64,000 bases of DNA, taken from contig NZ_JAERQY020000001.1 in the NCBI RefSeq assembly GCF_016735495.2, positions 124,001 through 188,000 on the forward strand, written 5' to 3'. The position numbers were made by a program, and so were the translations under genes. A model generated the notes under the pieces. The model was not told the DNA's origin. It was given only the letters and a program-made list of their open reading frames with translations, and searched no databases. Shown in pieces: positions 3,776-46,534 of the stretch. This stretch comes from Lysobacter sp. MMG2. GTDB lineage: Bacteria > Pseudomonadota > Gammaproteobacteria > Xanthomonadales > Xanthomonadaceae. The number at the start of each line of letters is the position of its first letter. Positions within the stretch are counted from its first letter, which is position 1.

Positions 3776-5464
3776 TTACTCGGACTTGTTGCCCAGCTGC
3801 TCGCGCAGCAGCGCGCCCAGCTTGGTCGTGCCGCTGGAGGCATCGGCCGAGGCGCGGTTGTAATCCGCCAGGGCTTCCTGCTGCTCGGCTTCGTCCTTGG
3901 CCTTGATCGACAGCTGCATCGAACGGCCCTTGCGGTCCGTGCCGATGATCTTGGCTTCGATTTCCTGGCCGACCTTCAGGTACTGCGAAGCGTCTTCGAC
4001 GCGCTCCTTGGCGATGTCGCGGGCGGCGATGTAGCCCTCCACGCCATTGTCCAGTTCGACGGTCGCGCCCTTGGCGTCGACTTCCTTCACGGTGCCCTTG
4101 ACGATGGAGCCCTTGGCGTTGGACGCCACGTACTGGCCCATCGGGTCCTGCTCAAGCTGCTTGACGCCCAGGCTGATGCGCTCGCGCTCCGGGTCCACGG
4201 CAAGAACAACGGCTTCCAGCGTGTCGCCCTTCTTGAAGTTGCGGACCACGTCTTCGCCGGTGGTGTTCCAGCTGAGGTCGGACAGGTGCACCAGGCCATC
4301 GATACCGCCGTCCAGGCCGATGAAGATGCCGAAGTCGGTGATCGACTTGATCTGGCCCGACACCTTGTCGCCCTTCTTGTGGATGGCGGCGAAGGTTTCC
4401 CACGGATTGCTGGTGACCTGCTTCATGCCCAGCGAGATGCGGCGACGCTCCTCGTCGACGTCCAGGACCATGACCTGAACCTCGTCGCCGACCTGCACGA
4501 TCTTGGACGGGTTGACGTTCTTGTTGGTCCAGTCCATCTCGGACACGTGCACCAGGCCTTCCACGCCCGGCTCGATCTCGACGAACGCGCCGTAATCGGT
4601 GACGTTGGAGACCTTGCCGAACACGCGGGTGTTAGCCGGGTAGCGACGGGCGATGTTGTCCCACGGATCCTCGCCCAGCTGCTTCAGGCCGAGGCTGACG
4701 CGGTTGCGCTCGCGGTCGTACTTGAGCACGCGGACGTCCAGCTCCTGGCCGACTTCCACGACTTCCGACGGGTGACGCACGCGCTTCCACGCCATGTCGG
4801 TGATGTGCAGCAGGCCGTCGATGCCGCCCAGGTCCACGAACGCGCCGTAGTCGGTGAGGTTCTTGACCACACCCTTGAGGATCGCGCCTTCCTGCAGCTT
4901 CTCGAGCAGCTGCTCGCGCTCAACGCTGTACTCGCTCTCGACCACCGCACGGCGGGAGACGACGATGTTGTTGCGCTTGCGATCGAGCTTGATGAGCTTG
5001 AACTCGAGTTCCTTGCCCTCGAGGTAAGCCGAGTCGCGCACCGGGCGCACGTCGACCAGGGAGCCCGGCAGGAAGCCGCGCACGTCCTTAATGTCGACGG
5101 TGAAACCGCCCTTGACCTTGCCGCTGATGCGGCCGGTGATGGTCTCGTTCTTCTCGAGCGCCTGCTCGAGTTCGTCCCACACCATGGCGCGCTTGGCCTT
5201 CTCGCGCGAGAGCACGGTCTCGCCGAAGCCGTTCTCGATCGAGTCGAGTGCGACCTTGACTTCGTCGCCCACGCCCACGTCGATCTCACCGGCGTCGTTC
5301 CGGAACTGTTCGATCGGCACGATGCCTTCAGACTTCAGGCCGGCGTTGATCACCACCACGTCGCCGCGGACTTCCACGACGACGCCGGTGACGATGGCGC
5401 CCGGCTTCAGCTTGGCCAGATTGGTCTGGCTCTGTTCAAACAGTTCGGCAAATGATTCGGTCAT
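3776..5464 (-). CDS. rpsA: 30S ribosomal protein S1
   Basis: The 562-residue protein contains six S1/OB repeats at roughly 70-90 residue spacing (about 25-530), recognisable by repeated DYGAFV and GLVHVS-like strings. S1 binds mRNA and helps unfold leaders on the 30S subunit. The start is placed at ATG 5464 (MTESFAEL), although the frame stays open upstream to 5620. This matches the usual S1 start and length (557 residues in Escherichia coli). It lies between cmk and ihfB as in other gammaproteobacteria. The 182-base leader is long enough for the autoregulation known for rpsA, but I did not identify a specific structure. Confidence 0.97.
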
Positions 5465-5646
5465 TGTTGAAATACTCGGTTGAACACACGGGCCGCACCG
5501 GCTGTCAGGGCCATCCACGTTGGAAGGCATCAAGCAGCGCGTGGTCGACCCACCCGTTGTGTGGCGCGATGAAGCCACGCCATGTGTTGTGGTTGAACCA
5601 TCGCGGGATTGCGATGGCACTTGCTTCTGCAGCGGTCGAAACGCAC

Positions 5647-6339
5647 TCAGCGCGCAGGCAGCAATGCCAGCACGCGTTCGACGACGTCTTCAATGCCGAG
5701 ACCGGTGGTGTCGATGCGAACGGCGTCATCGGCCGGTCGCAACGGTGCCACCGCGCGACTGGCATCGCGGGCGTCGCGGGCGAGGATCTCCCGCAGCAGA
5801 CCGTCTAAATTAACGGAAACTCCCTTGTCTTTCAACTGCTTATAGCGCCTTTCCGCTCTTTCTTCGGCGCTGGCGGTCAGAAACACCTTGTAGGGGGCGT
5901 CCGGGAAGATCACCGTGCCCATGTCCCGCCCGTCGGCCACCAGGCCCGGGGGCTGCCGGAAGACGCGCTGGCGGTCCTTCAGGGCGGCCCGCACCTCGGG
6001 AATGGCCGCAATGGCGGACGCGGCCGCCCCGGCCGTCTCGGTGCGCAGTTCGTCGGTGGCGTCCACCCCGTTCACCACGATCCGCAGCTCGCGGGTGGAC
6101 GGATCCTCGATGAACTCGATCTGGGTATCGAAGGTGCAGCGCACCAATGCCGCCGGATCGGCCAGATCGACGTCCGCCCAGCCGGCGGCCACGGCGACCG
6201 CGCGGTACAGGGCCCCGGAATCCAGGTAGTGCCAACCCTGGCGGGCGGCGACGAGACGGCTGATGGTGCCCTTGCCGGAGCCGGAGGGGCCGTCGATGGT
6301 GAGGACGGGAACGCTGTTTTGCAGGTTTGGGCTGTTCAT
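5647..6339 (-). CDS. cmk: Cytidylate kinase
   Basis: This 230-residue P-loop kinase carries GPSGSGKGT at residues 17-25 and the family strings [21 protein letters not shown] and SAEERAERR. It phosphorylates CMP and dCMP with ATP in pyrimidine nucleotide recycling. ATG 6339 is chosen because the P-loop then starts at the usual distance from the N-terminus; the frame extends upstream to 6414 without homologous features. It is the first gene of the cmk-rpsA-ihfB block. Confidence 0.95.
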
Positions 6340-41166: not shown

Positions 41167-41976
41167 ATGTCCTCCGCGTTTGGCACCGAGACGGTGCTGG
41201 ATGTCCGTCACTGGACGGACGACTACTTCAGCTTCACCACCACCCGCGATGACGGCTTCCGTTTCGAGAACGGCCAGTTCGTCATGATCGGCCTGCAGGT
41301 CGAACAGCCCGACGGTTCGCACAAGCCCTTGCTGCGTGCGTATTCCATCGCCAGCGCGAACTGGGAAGAGCAGCTGGAGTTCTTCAGCATCAAGGTGCCG
41401 AACGGCCCGCTGACCTCGCGCCTGAAGTCGATCCAGCCCGGCGATCAGATCCTGATCGGCCGCAAGCCCACGGGCACGTTGCTGATCCACGACCTGCATC
41501 CGGGCCGCAACCTGTACCTGCTGGGCACCGGCACGGGACTGGCGCCGTGGCTGGCGGTGATCAAGGATCCGGAAACGTACGAGCGTTTCGACAACGTCAT
41601 CCTCACGCACGGCGTGCGCAATGCGCAGGACCTGGCTTACCGGGATTACTTCCTCAACGAGTTGCCGCACCACGAGTTCCTCGGCGAGCAGATCGCCGCC
41701 AAGCTCAAGTACTACCCGGCGGTGACGCGCGAGGCGTTCGAGTTCGACGGTCGCGACCAGCGCGGCCGCCTCACCGAGCTGTTCGACAGCGGCCGGATGA
41801 TGGAACACCTGGGCCTTCCATCGCTGGATCCCGAGCACGACCGCGCGATGATCTGCGGCAGCCCGCAGATGCTCGCCGACTTCCGCACGATCCTCGACGG
41901 CCGCGGATTCACCGCCGCACCGCGCATCGGCACGCCGGGGCATTACGTGTTCGAGCGGGCGTTCGTGAAGAAGTGA
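41167..41976 (+). CDS. fpr: Ferredoxin-NADP reductase
   Basis: The 269-residue flavoprotein has the FAD motif RAYSIAS (57-63) and the NADP-binding string LLGTGTGLAPWLAV. The C-terminal end is GHYVFERAFVKK. It transfers electrons between NADPH and ferredoxin or flavodoxin and helps with oxidative stress and iron-sulfur metabolism. Length and motifs match subclass I bacterial FprA. Its stop is only 15 bases from that of the convergent orphan gene on the minus strand. Confidence 0.94.
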   Translation: MSSAFGTETVLDVRHWTDDYFSFTTTRDDGFRFENGQFVMIGLQVEQPDGSHKPLLRAYSIASANWEEQLEFFSIKVPNGPLTSRLKSIQPGDQILIGRKPTGTLLIHDLHPGRNLYLLGTGTGLAPWLAVIKDPETYERFDNVILTHGVRNAQDLAYRDYFLNELPHHEFLGEQIAAKLKYYPAVTREAFEFDGRDQRGRLTELFDSGRMMEHLGLPSLDPEHDRAMICGSPQMLADFRTILDGRGFTAAPRIGTPGHYVFERAFVKK

Positions 41977-41991
41977 GGACTACGTGGGTCT

Positions 41992-44900
41992 TCAACCAAG
42001 CGAGTTGATCGATCGCACCAGGGTGTGGAGCGCGGTCCATACGTCCGGCAGCACCAGCGGGAGCAGCACCGCGCCCATCGCCAGGAACTTCGGCCATAGG
42101 GCCCGCAACGCGCCGCCGAAGCTGAGGTCATCGCCATGCCGGGTGAACATCGCGCCGAGCATCGGGTCCTTCTCCAGGCGCAGCACCGCAACGACGATGA
42201 TGGCAAAGCTCGCCAGGAGCAGCCCGATCGACATCGTCCTGAGCCAGCGCTCGTATATCGGCGGGTACGCCGTCATCGCCAGCAGAACCGCCAGCGGCGC
42301 GGCCAATGCGCACCAGGCCGAGAACCGGATGGCGACCACAAGCAGCTTGAGCTCGGCGACCAGCTGACGTTGCCACGCATCGAACGTGGAAGCATGGGGT
42401 GGATACACGCCGTTTCCGTCGATGATGAGCCTCCCTTCGAGGATCCACGCCCGCAGCGGTCGCGACTTCAGGGCCGCAACGTCCTTTCGCCGCAACTCCA
42501 GGTTGAACGGCGTCTGGATGGTCTCCTGCAAGGCCTGCGGCGAGGGCCAGTCCTTCATGCCCTTGCGCGCCTGGACGGACGGAATGCTTCTGGACAGCCA
42601 CAGCGTGACGCGGCCGAGTTGGCGCAGGTGCGAAGCCAGCGTCACCAGGAAAGCCACGCTGCACAACAGGGCAAGCATCGCGAACAACCAGGGATTGCGC
42701 GCATCCACGCTCACCGGCCGGGTGTCGGTGAAGTAGAACGTGAAGACCACGATCAGCAGGATGCCCACCGGAATCAGCCAGGGCCGCCTGCTCTGCACGG
42801 CATCGGGCCAGTCGAGGGACCGGCCATACACCTCGTAGCGTCGTCCCGCGATGCTCAGGCGCACCACGCCCACGATCGCGAAACAGGCATAAAGACCCCA
42901 CAGGCAGTACACGGCCCACAGATCGCGGCCATGGGCCAGGTCGAAGGACGCGTCCAGACCGCCCCACCGACCGATCTGACCCAAACGCACCACCGCGACC
43001 AACGCCACCACACCGGCGATGACGGTCAGCCCCCAAAGCAGCGCGCGTCCAAGCGTCGCGAGAGACTCCACGGCCTCCGGGTCCTCCACGGGCGCCGGCC
43101 GCGAACGGTCCGAAGACGTCGTATCGCGGGCCAGGAACCAGCGGGTGAGCCATCGCGAGTCGGTGACGAGGTGTCCGGCGAAGTTCGACATTACGCTCCC
43201 GCCCGGCGTGCCGCGCACCATCCAGACACCGGCCGCGAAAAGGAAGATCGCCAATAGCGCCATCGCCAGGTACCAGGGCCGCTGCAACGCCATGCGCGAA
43301 TCGGCGGCGACCATGGTGCTTCGGCGCTCCTCGTCCAGGCTCGCGAATCCGGCCAGGGTCGCCACGTACAGCTTGGGATCGCAGGGGCCGCCGGGGCACA
43401 TCGCACCCATGACGTATTCGGAAAGACCGCCGTCGCGATAACCCGCGGCCCGTTCGCGATAACCGACCATGAGGTGAACGGCGCGAAGCATGTTGGCGGC
43501 GTGGTCGGTCGAGAACGGGATGCGCATCGCCTTGTCACGCGCCTCGCCCCGTTGCTTCAGGTTGGAACGGTCACTTCCGCGCCGTCGTGCGCAAGCGTCC
43601 ACTTCGCCGTCCCGCAAGCAGACGATGGGGTCCAACGCGGGCACGATGACGGCGCCACGACTGGTCGCGCGGTAGTCGGGATGCACCATGAGATAGTCCA
43701 TTTCCAGCATCACCGGCAACGCCGCCGGCAACGCCTTGCGCACTTCACTGAGCAGGAAGAGGCGGTCGCGCACATCGGTGGCGACGATCACCACCACATC
43801 CGGCTTTCCCCATACCCGCATCGAATCGAACATGCGGTGCAGCATGAGTTCGTCAGAGCGGGAGCTCAGCGCCGGCTGGTACGGAGGCGGACGGTCGACG
43901 CCCGCCTCCGTGCTGGCCATGTCCAGTTCCAGCAACCGTCCCGAACTACCCGTCGCCTGCTGGCGCGCCGCCAGTTCCGCCTTGCGCAGACGCGAGTGCT
44001 CGGCACGTATGGACGAGATGTTCGGCGAGAACGGTTTGACCTGGAACCTAAGGCTTCCCTTGCCCGGGCAACGCGGAGGGTCGTCGTCCAGTCGGTTCGC
44101 AAGGTCCCGGGCCCCTCGTCCGAAGGTGGATTCCTCTGCCAGAAACACGATCCTGCGCTCGTGCAGCAGGTCGTTGTCGCACAGGTATCGGGTGAGCGAC
44201 TGCATCTGCCTGTCGAGCGTCCAGGCCAGTGAGCCGTACTCCACCTTGATGCCGTGGACAAAGCCATGTTGAACGATCCACTGATTGGTCGACACCGACG
44301 CCGTGGGACTGATCAGGTTCACTTTGAGATCGCCCGGCCGCCCCGAGCCGTCGCACGTTTCGCCCCCACAGCCGAGCCGGCCTATGGCGACCGCCAGCGA
44401 CTGCATCGAACCGGAAAAGGAAGGCCCGATCACGTTCAAGGTCTTGCTGCCTGGCGATGGTCGCCGGTTGCAGGGCTCCGCGGGCGACAACGCACTCACC
44501 GTCGCCCTGACGTCGTTGAACAGCAGCGCGCACTGGGCAGCCACCGCGAACGCACGCGGCTGGACCCCGTAGCTTGGCGAGTCGCCGACCAGATAGACCA
44601 GGTCGTACGCGACGTCGGCGGCGCCCAGGGCCAGTTCGCGACCACGCGCTGCCTCGGCACCCGGTTTTCCGTGTTCCCGCCACACATCCTTTCGGAACAG
44701 AAGCAGGCTGGGCATGCCACGATGCTTGCCATCGTAGCTGGCGGTCCCCTGCACGCCTGCAGTGGGCAGAGCATCGGGCTTCCTCGGTTCCCACGAGAAG
44801 GCGAAACCGTCCAACTCGTAACCCTTTGCCTGGTAGGCACTCAGCACCGCCGCCACGGCCATGTCGAACGATTTGCCCATCGTCGTTTCGACCGGGTCGG

Positions 44901-45207
44901 GCACCGTGACCACCGACGCGTGCAGCACGACCTCGCCATCGGGCGGCAGATGGCGCAGGGGTGTGAGCGCGTTCTGCAACTGCGGCGTGGTGATGAAGTA
45001 CGGGTTGCTCGGGGGTGACACGAGTGCAGGTGCGGATGCGGATGCAGGCTCACCAGGCGCAGGCGCGGCCGAGGATAGGCCGAGCTGGCAGGCCAGGGTC
45101 AGTCCAGCCATCCAGTTCATGATGCGGTGGCATGAGCGCTCTCCCGCCGCCATGCGCTGTACGCAGCCTCGCGACCATCCCCGCCCCGAATTCACGTCCC
45201 TGCCCAT
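41992..45207 (-). CDS. Large orphan membrane protein with periplasmic-binding-protein-like region
   Basis: This 1,071-residue protein has an N-terminal hydrophobic stretch at about 33-47, then a long polar, probably periplasmic part to about 645. About eight membrane segments follow (near 646-665, 723-742, 765-787, 810-828, 839-858, 967-983, 990-1010 and 1041-1055). Within the polar part, VIGPSFSGSMQSLA (about 260-273), LISPTASVSTNQW, VFLAEESTFG and VVIVATDVRDRLFLL recall type 1 periplasmic binding proteins. Cysteines are frequent there. Start 45207 is set by GGAGG 6 bases upstream; ATG 45120 is the alternative. I do not recognise the family; a ligand-sensing membrane receptor is an inference. 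Confidence 0.75.
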   Translation of the reverse strand: MGRDVNSGRGWSRGCVQRMAAGERSCHRIMNWMAGLTLACQLGLSSAAPAPGEPASASAPALVSPPSNPYFITTPQLQNALTPLRHLPPDGEVVLHASVVTVPDPVETTMGKSFDMAVAAVLSAYQAKGYELDGFAFSWEPRKPDALPTAGVQGTASYDGKHRGMPSLLLFRKDVWREHGKPGAEAARGRELALGAADVAYDLVYLVGDSPSYGVQPRAFAVAAQCALLFNDVRATVSALSPAEPCNRRPSPGSKTLNVIGPSFSGSMQSLAVAIGRLGCGGETCDGSGRPGDLKVNLISPTASVSTNQWIVQHGFVHGIKVEYGSLAWTLDRQMQSLTRYLCDNDLLHERRIVFLAEESTFGRGARDLANRLDDDPPRCPGKGSLRFQVKPFSPNISSIRAEHSRLRKAELAARQQATGSSGRLLELDMASTEAGVDRPPPYQPALSSRSDELMLHRMFDSMRVWGKPDVVVIVATDVRDRLFLLSEVRKALPAALPVMLEMDYLMVHPDYRATSRGAVIVPALDPIVCLRDGEVDACARRRGSDRSNLKQRGEARDKAMRIPFSTDHAANMLRAVHLMVGYRERAAGYRDGGLSEYVMGAMCPGGPCDPKLYVATLAGFASLDEERRSTMVAADSRMALQRPWYLAMALLAIFLFAAGVWMVRGTPGGSVMSNFAGHLVTDSRWLTRWFLARDTTSSDRSRPAPVEDPEAVESLATLGRALLWGLTVIAGVVALVAVVRLGQIGRWGGLDASFDLAHGRDLWAVYCLWGLYACFAIVGVVRLSIAGRRYEVYGRSLDWPDAVQSRRPWLIPVGILLIVVFTFYFTDTRPVSVDARNPWLFAMLALLCSVAFLVTLASHLRQLGRVTLWLSRSIPSVQARKGMKDWPSPQALQETIQTPFNLELRRKDVAALKSRPLRAWILEGRLIIDGNGVYPPHASTFDAWQRQLVAELKLLVVAIRFSAWCALAAPLAVLLAMTAYPPIYERWLRTMSIGLLLASFAIIVVAVLRLEKDPMLGAMFTRHGDDLSFGGALRALWPKFLAMGAVLLPLVLPDVWTALHTLVRSINSLG

Positions 45208-45213
45208 CGGATA

Positions 45214-45218
45214 CCTCC
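45214..45218 (-). promoter_or_regulatory. Ribosome binding site deciding the orphan start
   Basis: GGAGG on the minus strand, 6 bases before ATG 45207, is the best site in the region. It favours this start over the ATG codons at 45153 and 45120. Confidence 0.6.
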
Positions 45219-45323
45219 GACGGTGCCAACGCCGGCCTTTCCGGTGACCGGCCAGCGACACGACGATCGCCGGTCGTCAGCCCACGTGAAATCCCAGCGC
45301 GACGTGACGATCGTGCGTCGGGA

Positions 45324-45716
45324 TCAGTCGCTGCCTTCGCGCAACCACCTCTGAGCGGCGACCACGTCAACGAACACGCGCGCATCGATCCCGTGGGCGC
45401 GCGCGTAGAGTTCGCAATACTCCACTTCCTGCAAGCCGCGAGGCTTCACGTGTGCGATCTTCAGGCGGCGCATCTGCTCCGGATCTGTGCGCACGACCAG
45501 CTCAAGCCATTGCGCTTCCGACAGCGGCCCTCCATGCAACTCGTCGACAAGCAGCACCGCACTGGCTCCCGTCTCATGCGCCGCGCGAAGGATCACATGC
45601 CAATATGCGATGGCATTGCCCAGGGTTTCCGCACCATGGACGTCCACGCGCAAGCCCAGCGCATGCGGCGCGACCTCGACCTGCAGCGACGACTCGGAGG
45701 AAGTGTCGTGCGTCAT
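45324..45716 (-). CDS. STAS/SpoIIAA-like small protein
   Basis: The 130-residue soluble protein has alternating strands and helices: LGLRVDVHG, AIAYWHVILRAAHETGASAVLLVDELHG, RLKIAHV and ARVFVDVVAAQRWLRE. The pattern, ending in 'VFVDxxxAxxWL', resembles STAS/SpoIIAA-like domains that act as ligand or protein interaction modules. There is no conserved phosphorylatable serine that I can point to. It lies 19 bases after the glutathione peroxidase gene and 116 before the large orphan, all in one direction, so all three may be linked. The function is unknown. Confidence 0.65.
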   Translation of the reverse strand: MTHDTSSESSLQVEVAPHALGLRVDVHGAETLGNAIAYWHVILRAAHETGASAVLLVDELHGGPLSEAQWLELVVRTDPEQMRRLKIAHVKPRGLQEVEYCELYARAHGIDARVFVDVVAAQRWLREGSD

Positions 45717-45735
45717 GGCGGGCTCGGCGGTCGGC

Positions 45736-46218
45736 TCAGCTCAGCGCGGCCTCGATATCCTTCGCGATCGATTCCGGCTTGTCGGTGGGCGCATAGCGCT
45801 TGAGCACGCGGCCGTCTCGGCCGACCAGGAACTTGGTGAAATTCCACTTGATGCCGTCGATGCCGAGGAACCCGCCCTTCTCGTCCTTCAACCACTTCCA
45901 CAGCGGATGCGCGGCGTCGCCGTTGACGTCGATCTTGGCGAACATCGGGAAGGTCACGTCGTAGGTGAGCGAGCAGAAGTTCTTGATCTCCGCTTCATCG
46001 CCCGGCTCCTGGTGGCCGAACTGGTCGCAGGGGAAACCCAGCACGTCGAAGCCGCGATCGGCGTAGTCGCGCTGCAGCTTCTCCAGGCCCGTGTACTGCG
46101 GGGTGAAACCGCACTTGGAGGCGACGTTGACGATCAGCAGCGCCTTGCCTTTGAACTCGTCCAAGGGACGCGGTGCGCCGTCGATGTCGGTGGCGGTGAA
46201 GTCGTAGGCGGTGGTCAT
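45736..46218 (-). CDS. Glutathione/thioredoxin peroxidase (GPx family)
   Basis: The 160-residue enzyme has peroxidatic Cys36 in NVASKCGFTPQY, Cys64 in LGFPCDQFG and a likely resolving Cys82 in KNFCSL. The tryptophan motif is WNFTKFLV. This is the cysteine GPx type, which usually uses thioredoxin. It removes hydrogen peroxide and lipid peroxides in the cytoplasm. It is the first gene of the minus-strand group with the STAS-like and orphan genes. Confidence 0.93.
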   Translation of the reverse strand: MTTAYDFTATDIDGAPRPLDEFKGKALLIVNVASKCGFTPQYTGLEKLQRDYADRGFDVLGFPCDQFGHQEPGDEAEIKNFCSLTYDVTFPMFAKIDVNGDAAHPLWKWLKDEKGGFLGIDGIKWNFTKFLVGRDGRVLKRYAPTDKPESIAKDIEAALS

Positions 46219-46534
46219 GGCGGTGCTCCGGTGACGGGTTCAAGGAAGGATAGCGCGGACCGGTGAACGACCCGCGCGCGCCGGAGCCGTCATCCCGGCG
46301 AAGGCCGGGACCCAGGCCAATTCACCTTCCGAAGGGCGGCGGCGTTGCCTCAAGAACCTGCGATACGGGCCTGGGTCCCGGCCTTCGCCGGGATGACGGT
46401 GTGGATTCGTCTCGATGACGGCTTCGGATTTGCTGCCACGACGGCATCGAAACCGCGACCACGATGCCCACCGCACAAACAACAACGCCGGGACAAGCCC
46501 GGCGTCGTCGCTCATGCGTTGGAACAGGCAACCA
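46219..46534. other. Intergenic region dominated by a large palindrome
   Basis: The 316-base gap between the GPx start and the TonB-dependent receptor end contains the perfect 32-bp inverted repeat listed separately (46287-46399). No coding signal is seen. Confidence 0.8.
46287..46399. repeat. Perfect 32-bp inverted repeat of the GTCATCCCGG family
   Basis: 46287-46318 and 46368-46399 are perfect inverted copies (starting CCGTCATCCCGGCG), separated by 49 bases. The arm is almost the same as the outer arm at 35552. Confidence 0.9.

Follow-up and report, generated by a model that had tools for sequence, protein, structure and literature searches.

An orphan member, in Lysobacter sp. MMG2, of an accessory bacterial family of predicted flytrap and eight-helix receptors

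We analysed a 64,000-nucleotide stretch of the genome of the soil-type bacterium Lysobacter sp. MMG2 (contig NZ_JAERQY020000001.1, positions 124,001 to 188,000; the window, whose numbering is used below), in which a reverse-strand gene at 41992..45207 encodes a 1,071-residue protein, hereafter called the receptor. This protein is a member of a real, accessory and structurally recognisable family with named loci, and its fold class, topology, conservation and accessory distribution are predicted with support. Our favoured reading, which we hold tentatively and to which we give a little less than an even chance, is that the window gene is an orphan of a bacterial family of receptors built from a flytrap and eight helices, which in relatives would act as outside-in triggers of self-directed damage or remodelling.

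The start of the gene was picked from a GGAGG stretch six bases upstream of the ATG at 45207; the full open reading frame (ORF), 41992-45261 on the same strand, begins with GTG and runs for 1,089 codons without a stop. The ATG start gives the 1,071 residues described in an earlier note on this DNA. The receptor gave no Pfam, PADLOC or PDB-sequence match at E 1 and no NCBIfam or PHROGs match at E 0.1, a sequence-profile search of the PDB yielded 47 matches at chance level (best E 0.047), and the single match in its own 4.17-Mb genome was the receptor itself. The note had seen no known output domain, and neither the Pfam search nor the predicted model revealed a recognised one. The reading frame is intact in the receptor copies of the window, a second genome of the same species (G200), G045, G181, G165 (L. 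soli) and G197. The dN/dS ratio of the window copy was 0.15 against G200, 0.30 against G045 (0.29 for the ectodomain and 0.28 for the membrane part), 0.35 against G181 and 0.49 against G165. Because the stop-free relatives G045, G181 and G165 match most of its length and dN/dS against G045 is 0.30, conservation indicates that the ORF is a real gene. Its slightly lower G+C content, remarked on earlier, is correct but weak, with values per kb of 0.65-0.67 in the gene as compared with 0.64-0.71 around it.

The structure of the receptor was predicted with AlphaFold2 from the window protein and 19 relatives (predicted template modelling score, pTM, 0.69; mean predicted local distance difference test, pLDDT, 72). 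The model placed a periplasmic Venus-flytrap (type 1 periplasmic binding) domain at residues ~72-635 (43303..44994, reverse strand), with helices and strands alternating in the manner of binding proteins and pLDDT of at least 75 in 41 of the 56 ten-residue blocks of residues 71-630. A Foldseek search against the PDB returned 13 matches at E 0.001 or better, which by title comprised four metabotropic glutamate receptor (mGlu) chains, five GABA-B chains, two chains of the G-protein-coupled receptor (GPCR)-transducer complex 9mba and two Desulfitobacterium substrate-binding proteins; AmiC and more binding proteins ranked below these. The matches 6e5v, 4q6b and 4mlc had probability 1.00 and E 1.5e-4 to 4.5e-4, and the TM-scores on the single-domain targets 6e5v, 4q6b, 4mlc, 4evq and 1pea were 0.50-0.61. 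The model thus supports a type 1 periplasmic-binding fold for the ectodomain, in line with the binding-protein-like periplasmic region that had been read from the letters.

The conserved GPxFSGS, SP(S/T)A and ATDVRDR stretches all lie within the ectodomain, and we regard them as candidate ligand-pocket elements. In the family alignments (A1-A3) they correspond to the GPSFSGS loop at residues 261-267 (44407..44427), with G261, P262, S265 and G266 invariant in A3; to LISPTASVSTN at residues 298-308 (44284..44316), with N308 invariant and S300 nearly so; and to the family signature ATDVRDR at residues 476-482 (43762..43782), which served as a search pattern. A ligand may bind between the lobes of the predicted flytrap, at the GPxFSGS and SP(S/T)A loops. 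The domain is preceded by a hydrophobic segment at residues ~25-48 (45064..45135), either a signal peptide or an anchor, represented by a low-confidence model helix (residues 25-42) and a family-average hydropathy peak (residues 32-50).

Hydropathy averaged over 20 members showed, besides the N-terminal peak, eight peaks past residue 640, as did the window protein itself, matching the "about eight" membrane segments counted earlier. The eight helices span residues ~645-1060 (42028..43275), the first entering from outside according to the positive-inside rule. Lysine plus arginine amounted to 12-18 per 100 residues in the loops 665-721, 783-808, 860-955 and 1010-1041, as compared with 4-8 in the outside stretches (20 members); the flytrap is therefore placed outside, with four cytoplasmic loops and the C-terminus outside. 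Cytoplasmic loop 3 (residues 860-955; 42343..42630), with W887 and P900 invariant in A3, is a candidate coupling surface. Loop 4 (residues 1010-1041; 42085..42180) showed 78-94% identity and dN/dS of 0.09-0.29 in three comparisons; among the regions scored in close relatives, its conservation exceeded that of loop 3 and that of the membrane part taken whole. Foldseek alignments extending into the GPCR helices had a root-mean-square deviation above 20, and therefore we make no fold claim for the membrane part.

The receptor is accessory and patchily distributed, occurring in seven of the 12 genus genomes (its own and the same-species genome counted) and in 10 of 198 family genomes. Profile searches gave lower bounds of at least 14 of 398 genomes in the order, at least 5 of 369 in the class and at least 3 of 398 in the phylum, with some matches weak and at most two candidates scored per genome. 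A single-protein search of the named-genome contigs gave no matches, while a profile search of named genomes yielded 23 loci out of 56 matched stretches, all reached via the pattern [IV][VA]ATD[VI]RDR, so that relatives lacking it escape the search. The hosts were Lysobacter, Pseudoxanthomonas, Dyella, Dokdonella, Tahibacter, Pseudomarimonas, Thiocapsa and Nevskia, together with a Lysobacteraceae bacterium, a second member of the Chromatiaceae, gamma- and other proteobacterial metagenome-assembled genomes (MAGs) and an Acidobacteriaceae MAG. A phage or plasmid origin was rejected, as tblastn searches of phages and plasmids gave no match, and there was no PHROG and no BFVD structure at E 0.001. 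Two distant proteins (L058:7339-10641 and L059:6619-7776) matched the profile at the ATDVRDR-type stretch and nowhere else; the former has several hydrophobic stretches by eye, and the two perhaps belong to a larger superfamily built on this plan. Among the matches listed in the full-text literature, a coverage that leaves bioRxiv preprints and most subscription journals outside, no such receptor or effector link was described.

We found that a predicted hydrolase or peptidase gene was adjacent or close to the receptor gene in 14 of 28 loci from eight lineages, several of them tight operons. The 28 loci are those readable on both sides, omitting the weak or partial G398, G671, G711, G781 and G979, the broken G214 and the contig-edge L084 and L098. 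The six Pseudoxanthomonas partners contain an N-acetylmuramidase over the cut-off and papain-like and hydrolase parts below it (Pfam on three, the remaining three assigned by likeness). In T. harae, the receptor gene overlaps the next gene by 4 bases and the following gaps are 0 and 4 bases; this operon encodes an amidase, hydrolase and caspase gene and then an HExxH-motif protein lacking a Pfam match. Lysobacter G129 carries Tle1-like, trypsin plus endonuclease, and DUF900 lipoprotein-like partners, and Thiocapsa roseopersicina a patatin with hydrophobic stretches (by eye), homologous to the patatin of the Acidobacteriaceae MAG (34% over 760 residues). The other partners are a homologue of the T. 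harae HExxH protein in a Lysobacterales MAG, a lipase-like protein in Dokdonella and a DUF900-like protein in Tahibacter soli (both below the cut-off, the T. soli receptor being split over two frames), and, in Pseudomarimonas, a small protein related to the first downstream gene of T. harae. The hydrolase domains of T. harae and Pseudoxanthomonas are homologous (27% over 355 residues, E 2e-20), and the main split of the receptor tree (100/100 support) separates their receptors; the tree was midpoint-rooted and kept this split after the three longest rows were omitted. A hydrolase domain shared across the main split argues for an old receptor-hydrolase link.

Most partners begin without a signal-like stretch by eye, the G129 DUF900 protein being the exception, suggesting that most would act from the cytoplasm. 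When eight partner-type proteins were searched with PADLOC at E 0.01, the caspase part (7e-10), the trypsin part (2e-5) and, marginally, REase_II (0.008) were recognised; the receptor itself matched no PADLOC anti-phage model. As a control, 17 genes lying 4.5 kb or more away from the receptor were taken from ten loci (L102 gave none), and 16 of them, from nine loci, were run. One of the 16 belonged to a peptidase family (an aspartyl protease, L100), and none was a lipase, caspase or wall hydrolase. The partner classes were defined after inspection, and with the cut-offs and choice of loci noted below, no probability is given for the hydrolase linkage. A small unnamed family was also seen 3' of the receptor in four lineages (L101:13027-13662, L100:13207-13947, L102 near 5140-6162 and L099:12929-13654), with 27-44% identity; the T. 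soli-MAG pair alone was not significant (E 0.017).

Several observations weigh against our reading. In 14 of the 28 loci, half of the total, the receptor has no hydrolase neighbour; these are the window, G200, G045, G181, G197, L. soli, four Dyella-type loci, a Chromatiaceae MAG, SZAS-87 and two of Nevskia. The Pfam families beside these receptors are glutathione peroxidase (GPx), a ferredoxin-NADP reductase-type family (Fpr), USP, thioredoxin-fold, AhpC/TSA, dehydrogenase, acetyltransferase, MEKHLA, YdjM, PEP carboxylase, MFS, RecG and UbiA; two neighbours, a STAS-like gene and a 308-residue G197 gene, had no meaningful Pfam match, and the remaining ones were assigned by likeness and synteny. 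Partner types vary between lineages, the Acidobacteriaceae patatin is encoded on the other strand and separated from the receptor by one gene, and the Dokdonella, T. soli, Pseudomarimonas and Lysobacterales MAG cases depend on Pfam matches below the cut-off or on homology with proteins that are themselves unnamed. Among the 14 linked receptors, four are frame-split (L090, L091 and L093 of Pseudoxanthomonas and L099 of T. soli). The control was run at E 0.001, as compared with E 0.5 for the partner scans, on loci that were not a random draw. In the own genome of the window we found no caspase domain, by a search that gave a match in one of 14 control genomes; searches with the patatin and muramidase partners, run without a positive control, gave no match. 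Finally, the full-length receptors among the top 13 Foldseek matches score TM 0.31 or less, the solid match being with the ectodomain only. The partner gene of L093 is also in pieces, and the frame splits may represent repeated inactivation or draft errors. The hydrolase link is thus recurrent but not universal, and the window member is an orphan.

In the mechanism that we propose, a small ligand or an envelope-derived signal would close the flytrap, the closure would shift the membrane helices, and cytoplasmic loops 3 and 4 might then set free or activate an effector that is a separate protein. In relatives, this effector would most likely be the adjoining hydrolase, whether a lipase, wall hydrolase, peptidase or nuclease; the window receptor, with no hydrolase beside it, may have an unlinked partner or have been re-used. 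We infer that the family consists of outside-in sensors that switch separate self-acting hydrolases. A bolder version, which we consider possible although doubtful, is that these are metabotropic-like bacterial receptors that, when a ligand binds outside, turn on separate suicide enzymes in the cytoplasm, which would be lipases, wall hydrolases, caspase- and trypsin-type proteases and nucleases, with the window gene free-standing and partners swapped.

An equally doubtful alternative is that the receptor is a stand-alone nutrient or stress sensor or a transporter, whose membrane part transports a solute, serves as an ion gate or signals by itself, the nearby hydrolases being there by chance. 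Half of the loci do stand alone, type 1 binding-fold proteins often feed transporters, and thiol-redox genes recur, as GPx at the edge of the slot described below, a thioredoxin-fold gene by the G045 copy and AhpC/TSA by the G197 copy. Against it stand the tight operons and the partner domains recurring across the main split, and no transporter family match was found in the window protein or in 14 members of alignment A2. In the window, the receptor lies in a slot (41977-45735) between GPx (45736..46218, reverse strand; Pfam GSHPx, E 8e-46) and, on the opposite edge, a gene with Pfam FAD- and NAD-binding domains that we take to be Fpr (41167..41976, forward strand). The Fpr-GPx junction (also loci L115-L122) is present in all 12 genus genomes with variable cargo, so that it exists without the receptor and its adjacency to GPx and Fpr says little; an oxidative-stress link by way of this adjacency was rejected on that ground. 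The thiol-redox genes near other receptor copies retain such a link within the present alternative, against which the receptor-free slots also count.

It is unlikely that the window receptor acts in trans with a Tle1-like, beta-lactamase-fold and peptidase-like cassette beside xylB. Its own genome has two Tle1-like sites, one of which adjoins xylB together with a beta-lactamase-fold-like gene (below the cut-off) and a homologue of the HExxH protein (32% over 563 residues, E 2e-52, against the T. harae and MAG proteins), and in G129 the receptor with its Tle1-like and trypsin-nuclease genes occupies the same side of xylB. This idea was not supported once a similar cassette was found in G198, ~296 kb from xylB, despite no receptor match in that genome, a finding that also counts against our favoured reading; receptor-less G105 has no cassette beside xylB and a weak Tle1-like match elsewhere. 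The region beside xylB (L128:5256-15383) resembles a conflict-type island, encoding the HExxH homologue and beta-lactamase-like, Tle1-like, trypsin, pYEATS, GDSL lipase and M4-like (below the cut-off) proteins.

We give a similarly small chance to the view that the window gene is the decaying remnant of a receptor-effector operon that has been lost. The want of a local partner, the patchy occurrence in the genus and the frame-split receptors of three Pseudoxanthomonas loci and T. soli would fit this view, whereas the open frames in six genomes and the dN/dS values of 0.15 to 0.49 given above speak against it.

The earlier note had proposed a ligand receptor with a STAS protein as its signalling partner; the receptor half was supported by the fold and the eight helices, and the partnership was not. 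A 130-residue ORF (45324-45716) lies upstream of the receptor across a 116-base gap, with GPx beyond it, all on the reverse strand as described; its start is 19 bases from the GPx stop. In a single-sequence model of low confidence (mean pLDDT 63), RsbV, RsbS and STAS structures ranked first (best E 2.3e-3), while no Pfam STAS match was found, so that the STAS-like identity read earlier is plausible from the model. The co-occurrence check that the note had called for showed no association: among the 198 family genomes, the STAS-like family is present in 77 and the receptor in 10, and both are in 4, as compared with 3.9 expected (Fisher p 1.0). The slot carries the receptor and the STAS-like gene in the window and G200, both with USP in G181 (USP lying between them on the opposite strand), the receptor alone in G165, a thioredoxin-fold gene with the receptor in G045 and without it in G199, the STAS-like gene in G198 and G129, USP and the STAS-like gene in G197, USP in G078, and a short-chain dehydrogenase in G148 and, by likeness, in G105. 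The receptor copies of G197 and G129 are located away from the slot; 71 bases past the former, on the same strand, lies the AhpC/TSA gene (L021:11784-12329).

Receptor and STAS-like gene are thus both passengers of a variable Fpr-GPx slot, and the latter is probably a bystander, a neighbour and not a partner on the present evidence of co-occurrence, slot synteny and modelling. That the two form a signalling pair is highly improbable: they are adjacent on the same strand in the window and G200, one gene apart in G181, and the STAS-like fold is plausible, but they co-occur at chance level, the slot carries either without the other, and the STAS-like gene still sits beside GPx in G198, G129 and G197, where the slot lacks the receptor. 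The tempting STAS link was therefore not upheld, and the gene is instead assigned to a real family with named loci. Third-position G+C was 0.82 for the receptor and 0.76 for the STAS-like gene, as compared with 0.90-0.91 for Fpr, GPx and TonB, and dN/dS between the window and G045 was 0.10 for Fpr and 0.14 for GPx. No sigma-70-like site was found in 44900-46500, a scan that says little in such G+C-rich DNA.

The plan of the receptor recalls several known systems. The type 1 periplasmic binding proteins (4q6b, 4mlc, 4evq and AmiC, 1pea) share its ectodomain fold, with TM-scores on the target of 0.53-0.61; unlike them, the receptor has its flytrap tethered to a large membrane domain, and no ABC transporter lies directly beside it (its neighbours being Fpr, the STAS-like gene and GPx). 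The 7TMR-DISM receptors likewise combine a bacterial extracellular sensor with a multi-pass membrane domain. In those receptors the output domain is part of the same chain, whereas our receptor has eight helices and no recognised output domain, and neither the window protein nor the 14 A2 members had a Pfam match to the 7TMR-DISM membrane or extracellular domains. Most described bacterial immune and death switches sense from inside the cell; a sensor outside with a separate enzyme inside would, if true, be a testable outside-in trigger. Kaur System 4 includes forms in which membrane helices and an extracellular PBP domain are joined to the caspase protein, with an EACC1 partner (PMC7159879). 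It resembles the present family in having caspase-type effectors near the membrane, and differs in that binding domain, helices and caspase form one protein there, while receptor and effectors are separate genes here (PMC7159879); a Pfam search found no caspase in the window protein.

In plan, the receptor also parallels the class C GPCRs (mGlu and GABA-B), which account for 9 of the 13 top PDB matches and in which a flytrap ectodomain is likewise joined to a multi-pass membrane domain. The receptor has eight helices with both ends outside, as compared with seven in GPCRs, and no GPCR sequence homology was found: the window protein had no Pfam match at E 1, and the eight chance-level families from the 14 A2 members included none. 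The likeness to class C GPCRs is thus an analogy of plan and not membership. Class C GPCRs have been proposed to descend from a flytrap plus membrane-bundle plan (PMC2670285, PMC8687355), and the present family would give a bacterial example of such a plan. If it does include a death switch gated by an extracellular ligand, this switch would parallel both class C GPCRs and death receptors by convergence.

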